Shown: one piece after another, positions 4,245 through 44,138 of the stretch
Layout: every line of letters starts with the position of its first letter
Position numbering within the stretch: the first letter of the stretch is position 1
DNA from: an uncultured Clostridia bacterium
GTDB taxonomy: Bacteria > Bacillota > Clostridia > Christensenellales > UBA3700
Reading direction: 5' to 3'
Assembly: GCA_944381275.1 (NCBI GenBank)
Contig: CALWKO010000009.1
Span: forward strand, 1 to 44,138
Length of the DNA: 44,138 bases
The notes under the pieces: model-generated
The model's input: the letters and a program-made list of their open reading frames with translations, nothing else
Databases searched by the model: none
Told to the model about the DNA's origin: nothing
Made by a program: the position numbers and the translations under genes

Positions 4245-4891
4245 ACATATACTCCTACGAAGGATATATCTTCGACTTAGACGGCACACTGCTTGATTCC
4301 ATGGAGGTGTGGCAGAAGATATACGCCCGCCCCTTTCAGGACGTGGGCATGAGCATGCCCAAAAATCTGCTGGAACAGATAAACCACCTTTCCCTGCTCG
4401 ATTCCGCCCGCTTTACGGTGGAGAAGACGGGCATCCCTTACACTCCGCAAGAGCTGGCGGAAAAGTGGGTGAAGACGGCGCGCTGGGTGTACGCCCACGA
4501 CATAGAGCTGAAGGCGGGCGCCTATGGCCTGCTCTCCCGCCTGCACGATATGGGCAAGCGGCTGGGGATTGCCACCGCCACCCCCCGCGGCATATTCGAA
4601 CCCTGCCTGGAAAGGCACGGCATAGCAGACTTTTTCATGTCCGCCACGAGCGTGGACGAGGTGCCGCGCGGCAAGGGCTTCCCCGATATATACCGCGAAG
4701 AAGCGCGCAGGCTGGGGCTTTCCGCCGGCGAATGCGTGGTATTTGAAGACAGTCACATGGGCGTGCACGGCGCCAAGGACGGCGGCTTTGCCGTTGTAGG
4801 CGTTTACGACAAGCAGTCCGCCAAATTCGCCAAGCAGATGCAAAAGGATTGCGATATGTATGTGTATTCGCTGGAGGAAATAGGAAAATGA
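4241..4891 (+). CDS. HAD-superfamily hydrolase, beta-phosphoglucomutase-like subfamily
   Basis: A 216-residue HAD subclass IA phosphatase/mutase, probably acting on a small phosphorylated sugar or similar metabolite. Motif I is FDLDGTLLDS (nucleophile and acid/base Asp). Motif II is the Thr of IATATPRG, motif III is the Lys in PRGKGFPD, and motif IV is FEDSHMG. The helical cap between motifs I and II is of normal size. It overlaps the preceding phosphoesterase gene by four bases, so the two probably act in one pathway of phosphorylated compounds. The stop codon TGA at 4889-4891 is formed by the first bases of the hairpin-array element that begins at 4888, so the original C-terminus may have been a little longer. 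Confidence 0.85.
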   Translation: MNIYSYEGYIFDLDGTLLDSMEVWQKIYARPFQDVGMSMPKNLLEQINHLSLLDSARFTVEKTGIPYTPQELAEKWVKTARWVYAHDIELKAGAYGLLSRLHDMGKRLGIATATPRGIFEPCLERHGIADFFMSATSVDEVPRGKGFPDIYREEARRLGLSAGECVVFEDSHMGVHGAKDGGFAVVGVYDKQSAKFAKQMQKDCDMYVYSLEEIGK

Positions 4892-5171
4892 TTTTTGAGG
4901 GACGCAAATTGACTATTTGCGGAGCGATAGCGTCCCTCAAAAATCGTGATATTTTTTACCTTCATATACTAAAAATAAATACGCCGCTTTTACAAGAAGG
5001 TAAAAAGTGATATTTTTTGGCAGATACACTATTATGCCATGAACAACTATTCGTGTGCCAAAAAGTGAAATGCGCCCTCAAACCGCCAAGGCGACGAGAG
5101 GGCGCGTGATATTTTTGCGCGTACAGTTTCAAGCAACGCCGCGCAAAAGTTGCGGTGCCGCAGGCGCATTG
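4888..5171 (+). repeat. hairpin array A-left (five modules, spacer GTGATATT)
   Basis: Starts with ATGATTTTT and reads inward. Module 1 has perfect 16-bp arms (4890-4905/4930-4945) with an inner GCAAAT/ATTTGC hairpin. Module 2 has arms TTTTTACCTTC 4953-4963/4996-5006 and an AT-rich loop. Module 3 has arms TTTTTGGCA 5014-5022/5056-5064. Module 4 has arms GCGCCCTC 5072-5079/5098-5105 with the conserved loop AAACCGC..GCGACGA. Module 5 has arms TTTTGCGCG 5113-5121/5140-5148. The array ends in the head GGTGCCGCAGGCGCAT (5154-5169). Modules are joined by GTGATATT, or GTGAAAT before module 4. No coding capacity is convincing. Confidence 0.85.
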
Positions 5172-5437
5172 AAAAATTTATATTTGATAAATACGCCGCT
5201 TTATAAATGTCAAAAGTGGAGATTTGCTCGTCAAATCTCCACGCGCCCTCTCGTCGCTCTGTGGTTTGAGGGGCATTGTTGTGCTTGCCTTGTTTTTCAG
5301 GTATCAATAGTTTATAAGCGGATAAGTAATAAATGCTTTTCAGGTATTGTAGCGTTATCTGCTGCCGCACAAAGAAATTTGACAGGCAAATTTCCACTTT
5401 TGGCACTTATAAAGCGGTGTATTTATTGAAGAAAAAA
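5172..5437. repeat. central segment of element A with inner inverted repeats
   Basis: Non-coding core between the two arrays. About 38 bp near 5188-5225 recurs inverted near 5388-5425 (both contain CCGCTTTATAA). Inside are a perfect 11-bp hairpin GTGGAGATTTG/CAAATCTCCAC, a copy of the module 4 sequence in reverse orientation (near 5244-5275), and two copies of the motif TTTTTCAGGTAT or CTTTTCAGGTAT. The same core sequence, including GCGGATAAGTAATAAATG, appears at the right end of the window in element D. Confidence 0.7.
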
Positions 5438-5763
5438 GTGTAAATGCGCCTGCGGCACCGCAACTTTTGGAGAGCGTTTACCGCTCGCGGTAAACAGTAT
5501 CTCCAAAAATATCACGCGCCCTCTCGTCGCTCCGCGGTTTGAGGGCGCATTTCACTTTTGGCGTAAGGATAGCTTCTGCGAAGAGAAAAAGCCTTAATGC
5601 TCATTACTTCACATCAAGGCTTATTATTTCGCTAGCCAAAAATATCACTTTTTTGGGGTAGATATAGCTTGCTTATTTTTTATTCTTTATCCCCAAAAAA
5701 ATATCACGATTTTTTCAAGTCGCTATCGCTCGTCATAAAATTATGCCGACTTGAAAAAATCAT
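5438..5763 (-). repeat. hairpin array A-right (inverted partner of A-left, spacer GTGATATT)
   Basis: Read on the minus strand from 5763. Module 1 is GATTTTTTCAAGTCG with perfect 15-bp arms (5708-5722/5747-5761). Module 2 has arms TTTTTTGGGG (5649-5658/5691-5700). Module 3 has arms TTTTGGC with an inner AAGCCTT/AAGGCTT stem (about 5555-5640). Module 4 has arms GCGCCCTC (5516-5523/5541-5548). Module 5 has arms TTTTGGAGA (5465-5473/5500-5508) and an inner GTTTACC/GGTAAAC stem. The head reads GGTGCCGCAGGCGCAT followed by TTACAC. Spacers are GTGATATT and GTGAAAT, as in A-left. The outer end supplies the TGA stop of iolG. Confidence 0.85.
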
Positions 5764-15750: not shown

Positions 15751-16105
15751 CCGCAAGGGCGCGTGCGATGACCGCCCCTTACCCCGCCCCGTAAAGCAAA
15801 ATTATTTGCCGATCGGCTGTGCGGGCGAAGAGGCGGCGGCGATGCATTTTAGGATGATTTTTCTCGAAATCGGTGAAGGTAATACTAGCCGTATTATCAA
15901 ACCGAAATCGGGGAAAAGCGCCTAAAAGGCGCATGCATGATTGCCCCTTTGCTCGCTCACACCGTAAAGCAAAATTATTTGCCGATCGGCTGCGCGGGCG
16001 AAGAGGCGACGGCGATGCATTTTAGGATGATTTTTCTCGAGATCGGCGAAGGTAATACTAGCCGTATTATCAAGCCGAGCTCGGGGAAAAGCGCCTAAAA
16101 GGCGC
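15751..16105. repeat. tandem 173-bp structured repeat, two copies, between sipW genes and TasA-like genes
   Basis: Two copies, cores 15789-15930 and 15962-16105, at exactly 173-bp offset. Each has, in order, the palindrome GCCGATCGGC (15808 and 15981), a long hairpin with a T-rich left arm and A-rich right arm around GGTAATAC/GTATTATC, and a small hairpin GCGCC-TAAAA-GGCGC. Differences between copies are partly compensatory: CGGT..ACCG in copy 1 is CGGC..GCCG in copy 2. No coding frame. It may be a duplicated terminator/attenuator or a structured RNA. Confidence 0.75.
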
Positions 16106-16152
16106 GTCGGCGGTCTTCGCCCGCGAAGCCGAGCGGCAAAGGAGAAACAAAT

Positions 16153-16839
16153 ATGAAAAAACATGGAGTAATTATGGTGTCTGCCGTGATAGCCGTGCTG
16201 TGTGCGGCGATCGTGGTGGGAGCGTCGTTTGCCCTGTTTTCGCAAAACGCCTCCGTGGAAACGTATCTTTCCGCGGGCGAGCTGAGCGCCGCCCTCGTGC
16301 GCACCGATTTGAGCGGACAGTTCGTGGACAAGAACGGAATTTTGGGCACGGAAACCACCGTGGACGAGGACGTGAACCTCACCGCCCTCGACAACACCAC
16401 CAACGCGGCGTTCAGCTTCGGCGATGACGTGTCCCCCGTATACAACGTCCCCGGCGTGTGGGAAGAAGCTGCTTTCAGCCTCACCAATAGCGGCAACGTG
16501 GCGTTCGACAGCGCTCTGCAATTCGCCTTTGTGGATGAAGCGCCCGAGGAAGGCACGCCCGAATATGTGCTGGCAAGCAAACTCGTTGTAACCGTTTCCG
16601 ATAACACGAGAACCCTTAAAACGGGCACTCTTGCTCAGATAATAAGCGGCGGCGTTATCGACCTGAACGCACGTCAGCTTGCAAGCCAAAGCTATGTATT
16701 CAAGATCAAAATAGAGCTGCCCTATGAAAGCGAAGTCGTCGACGACGGCACGGGCAGCACCATCATGAACGCAAACTTGAAGTTCACCTTCACCGTGACC
16801 GCTACCCAGACGGTAGAGGACGGTGCAATAACCGAATAA
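16153..16839 (+). CDS. TasA/CalY-like secreted fibre subunit 1
   Basis: A 228-residue protein with a SipW-type signal peptide (MKKHGVIMVSAVIAVLCAA then VGASFALFSQNA) and a mature region typical of the TasA/camelysin family: an early strand (SAGELSAALVRTD), then AAFSLTNSGNVAFDSALQFAFVDE, and a late KIKIELPYESEV strand. TasA-type subunits are exported, cut by SipW and polymerise by donor-strand exchange into extracellular fibres. AAAGGAG precedes the ATG at good spacing. It is the first of five SipW-type substrates in a row. It lies after the 173-bp repeats, and no separate strong promoter is visible. The mature part does not share the long head module seen in the last three proteins. Confidence 0.8.
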   Translation: MKKHGVIMVSAVIAVLCAAIVVGASFALFSQNASVETYLSAGELSAALVRTDLSGQFVDKNGILGTETTVDEDVNLTALDNTTNAAFSFGDDVSPVYNVPGVWEEAAFSLTNSGNVAFDSALQFAFVDEAPEEGTPEYVLASKLVVTVSDNTRTLKTGTLAQIISGGVIDLNARQLASQSYVFKIKIELPYESEVVDDGTGSTIMNANLKFTFTVTATQTVEDGAITE

Positions 16840-28757: not shown

Positions 28758-29073
28758 ATGATTTTTTCAAGTCGCAAAGTATTTGTTTGCGAAGCGTTAG
28801 CGACTTGAAAAAATCGCGAAATCTTTTGACTTCATAAACTATTTATATATTCCTTTCTTTTAACAGAAGTCAAAAGGCGAAATCTTGCGGCGGATATGAA
28901 TAATCTCTACGAAATACTTAACGTTCGCCGCAAGGCGAAATCCGCCCTCAAACCGCAGAGCGACGAGAGGGCGGGCGAAATCCATGGATATACTGTTGCG
29001 GAGCAACGCTATCCATGGGCGGCGGCACCGCAAGCGGATTTACACTTGTTTGGTCTTATTGCGAAAGTTATCA
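28758..29073 (+). repeat. hairpin array B-left (spacer GCGAAATC)
   Basis: Module 1 has perfect 16-bp arms GATTTTTTCAAGTCGC (28760-28775/28800-28815) with inner CGCAAA/TTTGCG. Module 2 has arms TTTTGACTTC (28824-28833/28866-28875). Module 3 has arms TTGCGGCG (28885-28892/28926-28933). Module 4 has arms CGCCCTC (28943-28949/28967-28973) with loop AAACCGCAGAGCGACGA. Module 5 has arms CATGGATA (28983-28990/29010-29017) with inner GTTGC/GCAAC. The head carries ATTTACACTTG. Every gap between modules is GCGAAATC. Confidence 0.85.
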
Positions 29074-29139
29074 CTCTAACATATTAAGCTGTTTATTGAG
29101 TTGGTAGTGTTGCCTTAATTGTTTTTTGTGCGCGGGCGT

Positions 29140-29490
29140 TTATTTGTCGCTCTTAGTTTTATTCGCGGTATTGATGGATTTTATTATCATCTTTCGTATT
29201 ACGCCGCATTCGTGTAACAAAGGCGTTACTTCTTCTTCCGCAAAATACTCGGCTCTCAAACCCAATTGCAACCAATATTCCGTTTCGTGGCATTCTTTCA
29301 ATGCTATGCGATATTTGTTTACAAAATCATCCGTGCTTGCGGCATACTTGGCTTCGTATGTATTTGCACCTATGGAAGTAGCACTCCTTCCCAATTGCCG
29401 TGCAACTATAACTTTTATGGAATCACGTTGAATATGTTCGCACAACTGCAAAACTTTTATGGCAAACGTTTGAGTTTTTTCCGTTAACAT
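29140..29490 (-). CDS. four-helix-bundle protein (23S rRNA intervening-sequence type)
   Basis: A 116-residue all-helical protein of the S23/IVS four-helix-bundle family, first known from open frames inside intervening sequences of 23S rRNA genes and related in fold to the Avd protein of diversity-generating retroelements. Family marks are FAIKVLQLCEHI, VARQLGRSATSIGANTYEA, STDDFVNKYRIALKECHET and EYWLQLGLRA. Its biochemical role is not established; nucleic acid binding is proposed for relatives. The start at 29490 is supported by GGGAGG; a TTG at 29505 is less likely. It is the only gene inside element B, has its own near-consensus promoter and is not linked to rRNA here. Confidence 0.9.
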   Translation of the reverse strand: MLTEKTQTFAIKVLQLCEHIQRDSIKVIVARQLGRSATSIGANTYEAKYAASTDDFVNKYRIALKECHETEYWLQLGLRAEYFAEEEVTPLLHECGVIRKMIIKSINTANKTKSDK

Positions 29491-29507
29491 AATATCCTCC
29501 CGCAACC

Positions 29508-29536
29508 ACTATAAAAGAAATCAAGTCTTGTGTCAA
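29508..29536 (-). promoter_or_regulatory. promoter of the four-helix-bundle gene
   Basis: On the minus strand TTGACA, 17 bp and TATAGT (29513-29508), close to consensus, with a leader of about 12-18 bases. It lies wholly inside element B, so the gene would be expressed wherever the element sits. Confidence 0.8.
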
Positions 29537-29585
29537 TAGCAAAACAAAACCACAGACAAAAATTTATACCAAAACGGAATAATAT

Positions 29586-29914
29586 TGATAACTTTCGCTA
29601 TAAGACAAACCAAGTGTAAATGCGCCTGCGGCACCTTCGCCCATGGAGAGCGTTTGCCGCTTGCGGCGAACTGTATCTCCATGGATTTCGCCCGCTTTCT
29701 CGTCCGCCGCGGAGCGGTGGGTTTGAAAGCGGATTTCGCCTTGCGGCGAACGTTAAGTATTTCGTAGAGATTATTCATATCCGCCGCAAGATTTCGCCTT
29801 TTCGGGGAAAGAATAGTGTTGATTATGAAAAATCTATATCCCCGAAAAGATTTCGCGATTTTTTCAGGGCACTTACGCTTCGCAAACAAATACTTTGCGC
29901 CCTGAAAAAATCAT
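29586..29914 (-). repeat. hairpin array B-right (inverted partner, spacer GCGAAATC)
   Basis: Read on the minus strand. Module 1 arms are GATTTTTTCAGGGC (29857-29870/29899-29912). Module 2 arms are TTTTCGGGG (29799-29807/29840-29848). Module 3 has the same arms as B-left (29741-29748/29782-29789). Module 4 arms are CGCTTTC/GAAAGCG (29693-29699/29725-29731), a double compensatory change from CGCCCTC/GAGGGCG. Module 5 arms are CATGGAGA (29642-29649/29676-29683). The head carries GGTGCCGCAGGCGCATTTAC. Spacers are again GCGAAATC. Confidence 0.85.
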
Positions 29915-43474: not shown

Positions 43475-44138
43475 ATGATTTTTTCAGGTCGCAAAGTAAT
43501 TGTTTGCGAAGCGTTAGCGACTTGAAAAAATCGTGGAAATTTGCTTTTGATAACTACGACATTTAAACAAAGTGTGATAAGCAAATTTCTTTGCGCGGCG
43601 TAGAGATATGTATCGATACCCGACCAAGTAATCAGCCTTCCTTATAAAATATATCGATACCCGATAAAGTCACAGGTAGCGCAACTATTTTTTGGGGATA
43701 AAAAATAAAGAGTAAGCGCACAGTATCTACCCCAAAAAAGTGATATTTTTGGCTTGCGAAATTATAAAGCCTTGAAGTGACCGATAGGGAGCGCAAGGCT
43801 TTCTCTCTTCGCAGAAAAATATCACACGCCAAAAGTGAAATGCGCCCTCAAACCGCAAAGCGACGAGAGGGCGCGTGATATTTTTGGACATACAGCCGTG
43901 GAGCGGCGCTGTCCAAAAGTTAAGGTGCCGCAGGCGCATTATAACTGCTTTTTTCTTATTAAGACCAAGCAAGTGTAAACCCGCTTTGCGGAGCCGCAAC
44001 TTTTGCGCGGTGTTACTTGCAACAGTGCGCGCAAAAATATCACGCGACCTCTCGTCGCTCTGCGGTTTGAGGGGCACCTTTTTGTGCTTGCTTTGCTTTT
44101 CAGGTATCGATAGTTTTCAAGCGGATAAGTAATAAATG
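43475..44138. repeat. element D: hairpin arrays, truncated by the window edge
   Basis: Starts ATGATTTTTTCAGG. Module 1 has 16-bp arms (43477-43492/43517-43532), then spacer GTGGAAAT. Module 2 has arms AAATTTGCTT (43537-43546/43579-43588). An extra TTGCGC/GCGCAA module holds two copies of TATCGATACCCGA. Further modules have arms TTTTTTGGGG (43688/43730), TTTTGGC (43747/43828), GCGCCCTC (43842/43867) and TTTTGGACA (43882/43910), then the head GGTGCCGCAGGCGCAT. An inverted array begins at about 43971 (module 5 arms TTTTGCGCG 44001/44028, module 4 at 44045) and leads into the same core as element A. Spacers are GTGATATT and GTGAAAT. Confidence 0.85.

Follow-up and report, generated by a model that had tools for sequence, protein, structure and literature searches.

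Hairpin arms with uniform linkers

The window (the whole 44,138-nt stretch of DNA analysed here, contig 9 of the parent assembly G000, which is 1.8 Mb and 76% complete) holds elements whose ends are rows of hairpins, and it raises the question of why the short sequences between these hairpins are alike within an element and change together from one element to another. Our answer, which we hold with a probability of roughly 70%, is that these rows (arms) are the ends of DNA elements in gut bacteria that are dispersed, probably mobile and dependent on a protein of the IVP family (PF05635/TIGR02436), and that the short sequences (linkers) would be sequence-specific sites for the IVP of the same or a related element.

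In element B (Table 1), GCGAAAT with a C behind it stands at each of the eight junctions in the two arms, so the likeness that the earlier note on this DNA had claimed for them is real. The 8-base junction described there is constant, but the true linker is 7 nt and the eighth base, C, opens the stem that follows. The hairpins are 33-56 nt each with exactly 7 nt between neighbours, and the outer ends read GATTTTT...AAAAATC with AT outside each end. A SIS-domain gene lies on one side of element B and an uncharacterised ORF on the other. Element A also reads as described earlier, with GTGATAT in both arms and GTGAAAT before module 4; element D has GTGATAT/GTGAAAT as inner linkers and is disrupted in its outer part.

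Table 1. Coordinates of the elements and their parts in the window
Feature	Position	Strand	Remark
Element A, complete	4890..5761	.	without IVP gene; T-type arms
Element A left linkers	4946, 5007, 5065 (GTGAAAT), 5106
Element A right linkers	5701-5707, 5642-5648, 5549-5555 (GTGAAAT), 5509-5515	-
Element B, complete	28760..29912	.	two inverted five-hairpin arms, IVP gene between
B left arm hairpin H1	28760..28815	+	56 nt
B left arm linker 1	28816..28822	+	GCGAAAT (C-type)
B left arm hairpin H2	28823..28876	+
B left arm linker 2	28877..28883	+	GCGAAAT
B left arm hairpin H3	28884..28934	+
B left arm linker 3	28935..28941	+	GCGAAAT
B left arm hairpin H4	28942..28974	+	module kept in sister species; compensatory stem changes
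B left arm linker 4	28975..28981	+	GCGAAAT
B left arm hairpin H5	28982..29018	+
GC after B left arm H5	29019-29020	+	letters 1-2 of split, type-matched fifth linker
B IVP gene (PF05635/TIGR02436)	29140..29490	-	ATG start; Shine-Dalgarno-like GGAGG immediately 5'
B right arm hairpin H5	29641..29684	-
B right arm linker 4	29685..29691	-	GCGAAAT on - strand
B right arm hairpin H4	29692..29732	-
B right arm linker 3	29733..29739	-	GCGAAAT
B right arm hairpin H3	29740..29790	-
B right arm linker 2	29791..29797	-	GCGAAAT
B right arm hairpin H2	29798..29849	-
B right arm linker 1	29850..29856	-	GCGAAAT
B right arm hairpin H1	29857..29912	-
Element D	43477..44138	.	ends at contig end; H1 intact, outer part disrupted
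Element D inner linkers	43740-43746, 43875-43881		T-type
Element D inner linker	44037-44043	-	T-type

Some further features of the window were seen alongside. Element A sits exactly at two gene ends, those of a HAD hydrolase (+) and a GFO/IDH/MocA oxidoreductase (-), and at its ends (4889-4891, 5760-5762) AT/GA gives TGA stop codons to both of these convergent neighbours. In element D, a stretch that carries two GTATCGATACCCGA-type repeats (43590-43690) takes the place of the outer part and is a separate insertion or rearrangement. Positions 15800-16140 hold two direct copies of a segment of ~120-170 bp (TTTGCCGATCGGCTG..GCGGGCGAAGA ... AAAAGCGCCTAAAAGGCGC), with an inverted piece directly upstream of the ORF at 16153; this segment, for which there is no Rfam match, looks like a duplicated leader element. 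An Rfam scan of the window matched no family, rRNA included.

Linker type is uniform along an arm throughout the genome

Within the window, GCGAAATC occurs 11 times (3.85 expected) and GTGATATT 12 times (0.98 expected), and none of 100 shuffles had as many of either. A similarity search with element B DNA gave 71 matches in the assembly. We scanned the fetched stretches with the sole requirement of a hairpin, 7 nt and another hairpin, and found the recurrent linker words GTGATAT (101), GCGAAAT (63) and GTGAAAT (18), all in one register and orientation. The linkers in G000 are therefore given here as C-type (GCGAAAT) or T-type (GTGATAT/GTGAAAT), and a complete arm is five unrelated hairpins with each joint exactly 7 nt.

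Letter 2 of the linker (C or T) is uniform in 41 of the 42 arms with at least three linkers, whereas 20,000 shuffles gave 13.4 such arms on average and at most 23. This test is not circular, since the search motif leaves letter 2 free between C and T. The claim of the earlier note that the spacers are uniform per element and switch together stands as to uniformity; the unit, however, is the arm, since one element (L012) combines a T-type arm with a C-type arm, arm types matching in 11 of the 12 complete elements (0.8-1.3 kb). Letter 5 is looser in T-type arms, mostly at junction 3, which reads GTGAAAT in 17 arms and GTGATAT in 11; GTGAGAT follows H1 in four.

We recognised 49 outer ends in G000, and AT stands before nearly all of them. 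An IVP gene is present in only two of the elements, B (C-type) and L016 (T-type). The genome has two linker types and exactly two detected IVP genes, one within an element of each type.

Hairpin stems and a split fifth linker

The hairpins H1-H5 in one arm are not copies of each other. Hence, tandem duplication cannot explain their alike linkers. Hairpin length ranges from 11 to 90 nt while the linker is constant at 7 nt, so spacing along an arm would be regular only if the hairpins are folded. In the H4 stem, two-sided changes keep the pairs (pair 1 is GC/CG and pair 2 is CG/TA, with further cases at pairs 5, 6 and 8). On the IVP-sense strand, we counted 15 G-T and 15 A-C stem mismatches in upstream arrays, and 18 G-T and 15 A-C in G000, in a search that tolerated G-T. 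With G-U showing no excess over A-C, the mismatches favour array hairpins that act as folded DNA rather than RNA.

The arm ends carry parts of one more linker. The two bases behind H5 are identical to linker letters 1-2 in 28 of 28 G000 arms and match the arm type (18.5 in shuffles for letter 2), and AT, the last two linker letters, precedes H1 in 25 of 28. In other lineages, the two letters after H5 agree in 12 and 11 of 13. Joining the two ends of an arm would thus give five linkers for its five hairpins, with a gap in the middle of the fifth.

Arrays accompany a subfamily of IVP genes

The architecture recurs in sister species, where an IVP gene again lies between the arms and the linkers are again uniform but differ in sequence: G001 and G003 have GTGAAAT, and a second element of G003 has GCGATAT. 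Sampled arms of G001 and G003 read GTGAAAT, the same as at the IVP elements of those genomes.

Further IVP genes (PF05635) were taken from the same order, the same class (Clostridia) and Akkermansia. A chain search without a motif (any 7-mer recurring with at most one mismatch and hairpins between, with dinucleotide shuffles as control) replaced an earlier hairpin-only scan around IVP loci that had missed arrays with short stems. At least three linkers were found on 57 of 221 IVP flanks in Clostridia and Akkermansia, compared with 0 of 221 shuffled flanks. A larger set of IVP flanks gave 161 arrays versus 7 in shuffles, and the motif NYKAN[AG]W, in either orientation, is present in 129 of the 161 and in none of the 7; the near-uniformity of these arrays is partly a condition of the search, because of its mismatch tolerance, and the strict test of uniformity is that in G000. 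The linker words seen were GTTATAT, GTGATAT, GTGAAAT, GCGAAAT, GCGATAT, ACGAAAT and ACGATAT, and further GCTAAAT, ATGAAAT, TTGAAAT, GTGAAGT, ATGATGT and GCGAGAT. Linkers hold this one consensus across phyla, between which the hairpins are unrecognisable. Arms around IVP genes have four linkers in 78 of 147 cases, three in 50 and five in 16. Hence, five hairpins are the commonest form and others exist.

The arrays belong to a distinct IVP subfamily: they occur at 91 of the 137 unique IVPs that carry E[AGS]xYA versus 3 of 135 other IVPs. The nearest array is mostly upstream of the IVP gene (56 of 69), and arm placement varies, with arms on both sides of the gene, on a single side, or in direct orientation (L079, L133). 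Viral contigs gave six IVP loci, one of them with arrays, in agreement with the letter-5 rule given below. By the same chain scan, plasmid IVPs of cyanobacteria and Treponema had no arrays. Three of the array-less genes on cyanobacterial plasmids, annotated as four helix bundle (L394, L396, L397), adjoin genes of defence type: in Planktothrix these are DISARM drmD and BREX pglX, in Dolichospermum a helicase and a DNA methyltransferase, and in Euhalothece an N-6 methylase. In one Clostridia genome (G533; L187, L199, L200), four IVP genes that share the same score and length (E 5e-33) lie far apart on a single contig; this set is possibly a recently multiplied IVP element or rRNA insert.

IVP residues track linker letters

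The element B protein matches PF05635 (E 7e-21) and TIGR02436 (E 2e-25) in profile searches, and PADLOC gave no match for it. It is predicted to be a four-helix bundle (pLDDT 95), and Foldseek matched the model to 2rld and 2gsc, entries with five chains each, and to the DGR protein Avd (4dwl_D, TM 0.80; 8ube, 8ub7). IVP/S23p has been known in bacterial genomes since the 1990s with 'no known function' and with roles in mobility only guessed; classical IVP genes sit in 23S rRNA inserts excised by RNase III, and a family member from Xanthomonas forms a homopentameric ring (PMC4990558, with Lin et al. 2006 as its source for the ring). Since the arm ends supply a split, type-matched fifth linker and the solved IVPs are homopentamers, an arm may offer five sites to the pentamer.

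In aligned array-bearing IVPs, residue 61 (Q or E; numbered from MLTEK of the element B protein, which has R there) tracks linker letter 5. The rule that Q goes with A and E with T or G was fixed before new loci were fetched. Of the 24 new unique IVPs with arrays, 22 have Q or E, and the rule was right in all 22 (Q-A 15, E-T 6, E-G 1; Fisher p 6e-6), these loci sharing lineages with the training set. One further case, in L387, also fits. In the pooled 91 IVPs, we counted 44 Q-A, 37 E-T, 2 E-G and 3 Q-T, plus 5 with other residues, all with A. The Q-with-T exceptions are L060 (in this genome), L076 and L078, and two of them have mixed A/T linkers.

Column 89 and letter 5 are the top pair among all pairs of a protein column and a linker letter. 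On a protein tree made with the column removed, a dependent model for letter 5 beats an independent one (LR 28, p 1e-5), compared with a best LR of 17.8 and a median of 3.5 for 60 control columns; only 6-7 changes occur on the tree at the letter and at the residue. Three more couplings were found post hoc: an N-terminal residue with letter 1 (S with G; N/D/H with A; LR 36), residue 48 with letter 2 (Q/N with T; K/V with C; LR 15.8) and residue 68 with letter 6 (Y/H/F with A; N/S with G; LR 15.5). A letter-6 rule set in advance did poorly on new data (C..E with A in 14 of 15, A..G with G in 1 of 2). In close IVP pairs that differ at one linker letter, the residue has often switched too: letter 5 and its residue both differ in L113/L217 (72% identical) and in L149/L220, and letter 1 switches in L324/L327 (83% identical) and L113/L213 (81%). 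The predicted secondary structure places the coupled residues at the N-terminal end of helix 1, where helix 2 ends, and two and four turns inside helix 3; this placement would fit a linker whose letters follow one another along one end of the bundle.

In the comparison that the earlier note had proposed, the type of spacer does track the type of cargo protein. Its suggestion that a type-specific factor recognises the spacer has good support from the covariation of linker letters with IVP residues and from the 22 correct advance predictions.

Dispersal of the elements

Copy number, dispersal, nested arms and IVP-less copies indicate that the elements are probably mobile. At six loci (L009, L010, L041, L042, L043, L029), arms lie inside the H1 loop of another arm or right after its inner end, which suggests that arms are targets for arms. 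A first query for empty sites matched the left flank alone in relatives; with a query of flank pairs, we found no clean empty site, and the orthologous sites in a sister species hold decayed remnants. At one of these (L368, G004:C24, orthologous to the L040 site), a single hairpin joins the 5' arm of one H1 to the 3' arm of another; this chimeric solo H1 is a possible footprint of loss via recombination between ends. A search for Y1_Tnp (PF01797) gave no match in the element-bearing G000 and G001, which is not proof of absence for G000 at 76% completeness, and a match in G002, where no array matched.

Discussion

The mechanism that we propose builds on the arm architecture, the linker uniformity, the stem covariation, the association with IVP and the covariation of residues with letters. 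An arm would be about five DNA hairpins whose folding exposes a regular row of identical 7-base linkers (~NYKANRT), whatever the hairpin lengths. These linkers, likely IVP recognition sites, would be bound by an IVP from the same element or from a related element in the genome, and each IVP lineage would read its own linker through a few residues. Letter 5 would be read by residue 61 (A by Q, T/G by E), and letters 1, 2 and 6 probably by a residue at the N-terminus, residue 48 and residue 68, respectively. As a single protein would read every linker in an arm, altered specificity of that protein would select for the same alteration at each junction; hence the junctions would be uniform and would switch together. 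The target of IVP would be folded DNA, and its binding would promote the spread of the element, the IVP acting in trans on copies without the gene. A further step, tentative and somewhat short of an even chance, is that a pentameric IVP ring sits on the five-hairpin arm with one subunit per linker (four whole and one split across the arm ends), reads it by a residue-to-base code and spreads the arms and their copies without IVP, no classical transposase being involved.

Uniform linkers could instead be a matter of descent, with arms duplicated or gene-converted whole as C-type and T-type lineages and nothing reading the linkers. In G000, linker type does go with the hairpin lineage (C-type versus T-type H2-H5), some arms are nested in or adjoin others, and chimeric H1 remnants indicate recombination between arms, so the earlier suggestion that an array is copied or corrected as a unit holds insofar as whole arms descend in this way within the genome. 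It leaves unexplained, however, uniform linkers between five unrelated hairpins and their link to protein residues: linkers share a consensus across phyla despite unrecognisable hairpins, and their letters covary with IVP residues in a prospective test. We consider descent without a reader quite improbable. It is more doubtful still that linkers of the left and right arms pair into a ladder of four-way junctions, with self-complementarity selecting for uniformity. Although linkers of inverted arms are exact complements and arm types match in nearly all complete elements, the two arms of L012 differ in type, other arms are direct or single, and pairing demands a match position by position rather than uniformity along an arm. 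No guide was found, and the earlier idea that spacers pair mutually or with a guide is not supported.

The arrays might also work as RNA, in which case the linker would still be the recognition site but in another molecule: the element would be transcribed, its hairpins would fold in the transcript, and IVP would bind single-stranded RNA linkers, like Avd in a reverse-transcriptase RNP, perhaps with a part in retro-mobility or in processing. In structure, IVP is homologous to Avd, a component of DGR ribonucleoproteins (8ube, 8ub7), classical IVP genes occur in the RNase III-cut inserts (PMC4990558), and the nearest array is mostly upstream of the gene. We nevertheless find this unlikely, as G-U is not above A-C in stems, no reverse transcriptase was seen within the elements, and arms lie in both orientations. 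Finally, the elements could be MITEs moved in trans by a Y1/HUH transposase (IS200/IS605 or RAYT-like), with linkers as guide-type sites and IVP as a passenger. REP/RAYT and IS200/IS605 ends are DNA hairpins flanked by short recognition motifs, which the arms resemble; Y1_Tnp, however, gave no match in the element-bearing G000 (76% complete) and G001 but is present in G002, where no array matched, and linker letters follow IVP residues. A Y1/HUH transposase is thus very unlikely to account for the arms. The preferred reading remains recognition of the linkers by IVP.

In REP/BIME-RAYT systems, scattered palindromic units are flanked by a short motif whose type goes with that of a cognate protein, and many copies are served in trans. 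The present elements share with these systems and with IS200/IS605 hairpin ends that have a type-specific motif beside them, here in the form of hairpin arms with uniform linkers that track protein residues; they differ in that IVP is a four-helix bundle without an HUH/Y1 motif and that each arm has five hairpins. As in MITEs, the elements are short, multi-copy, mostly non-coding (49 array ends, IVP in 2 elements) and intergenic with inverted ends, but these ends are arrays of separate hairpins, not simple terminal inverted repeats. We know of no matching transposase for hairpin-array elements. The likeness to CRISPR and integrons noted earlier is loose: regular spacing of repeats is shared with integron attC arrays and CRISPR superficially, but no integrase or Cas is seen in the elements, which are too small for Cas genes and encode IVP at most, and conserved and variable parts are reversed, the 7-nt linker being conserved and the palindromes variable. 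Hairpin modules also recur between arms, unlike the unique spacers of CRISPR.

Nearer to the protein, the 23S rRNA IVS shares a small PF05635/TIGR02436 ORF with 'no known function' within an element with inverted repeats (PMC4990558). In contrast, the elements here lie between genes in many copies and have arms of five hairpins joined by uniform 7-nt linkers, and element B lies outside any 23S rRNA gene in a window without rRNA. DGR Avd (4dwl, 8ube, 8ub7) shares the four-helix-bundle fold and the role of nucleic-acid partner; no reverse transcriptase or template/variable repeats were seen within the elements, which encode IVP at most, and the target is apparently DNA hairpin arrays. We found no description of IVP-associated hairpin arrays in the literature searched, which was limited to papers readable without subscription. 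The IVP family and its ring structure are known.

If the proposed reading is true, IVP/S23p would have a sequence-defined partner and a residue-base code that predicts new cases, making its function directly testable. It would also represent a mode of recognition in which the number of repeats is matched to the symmetry of the protein, and there would be a reason for the joint change of many separate 8-base junctions.
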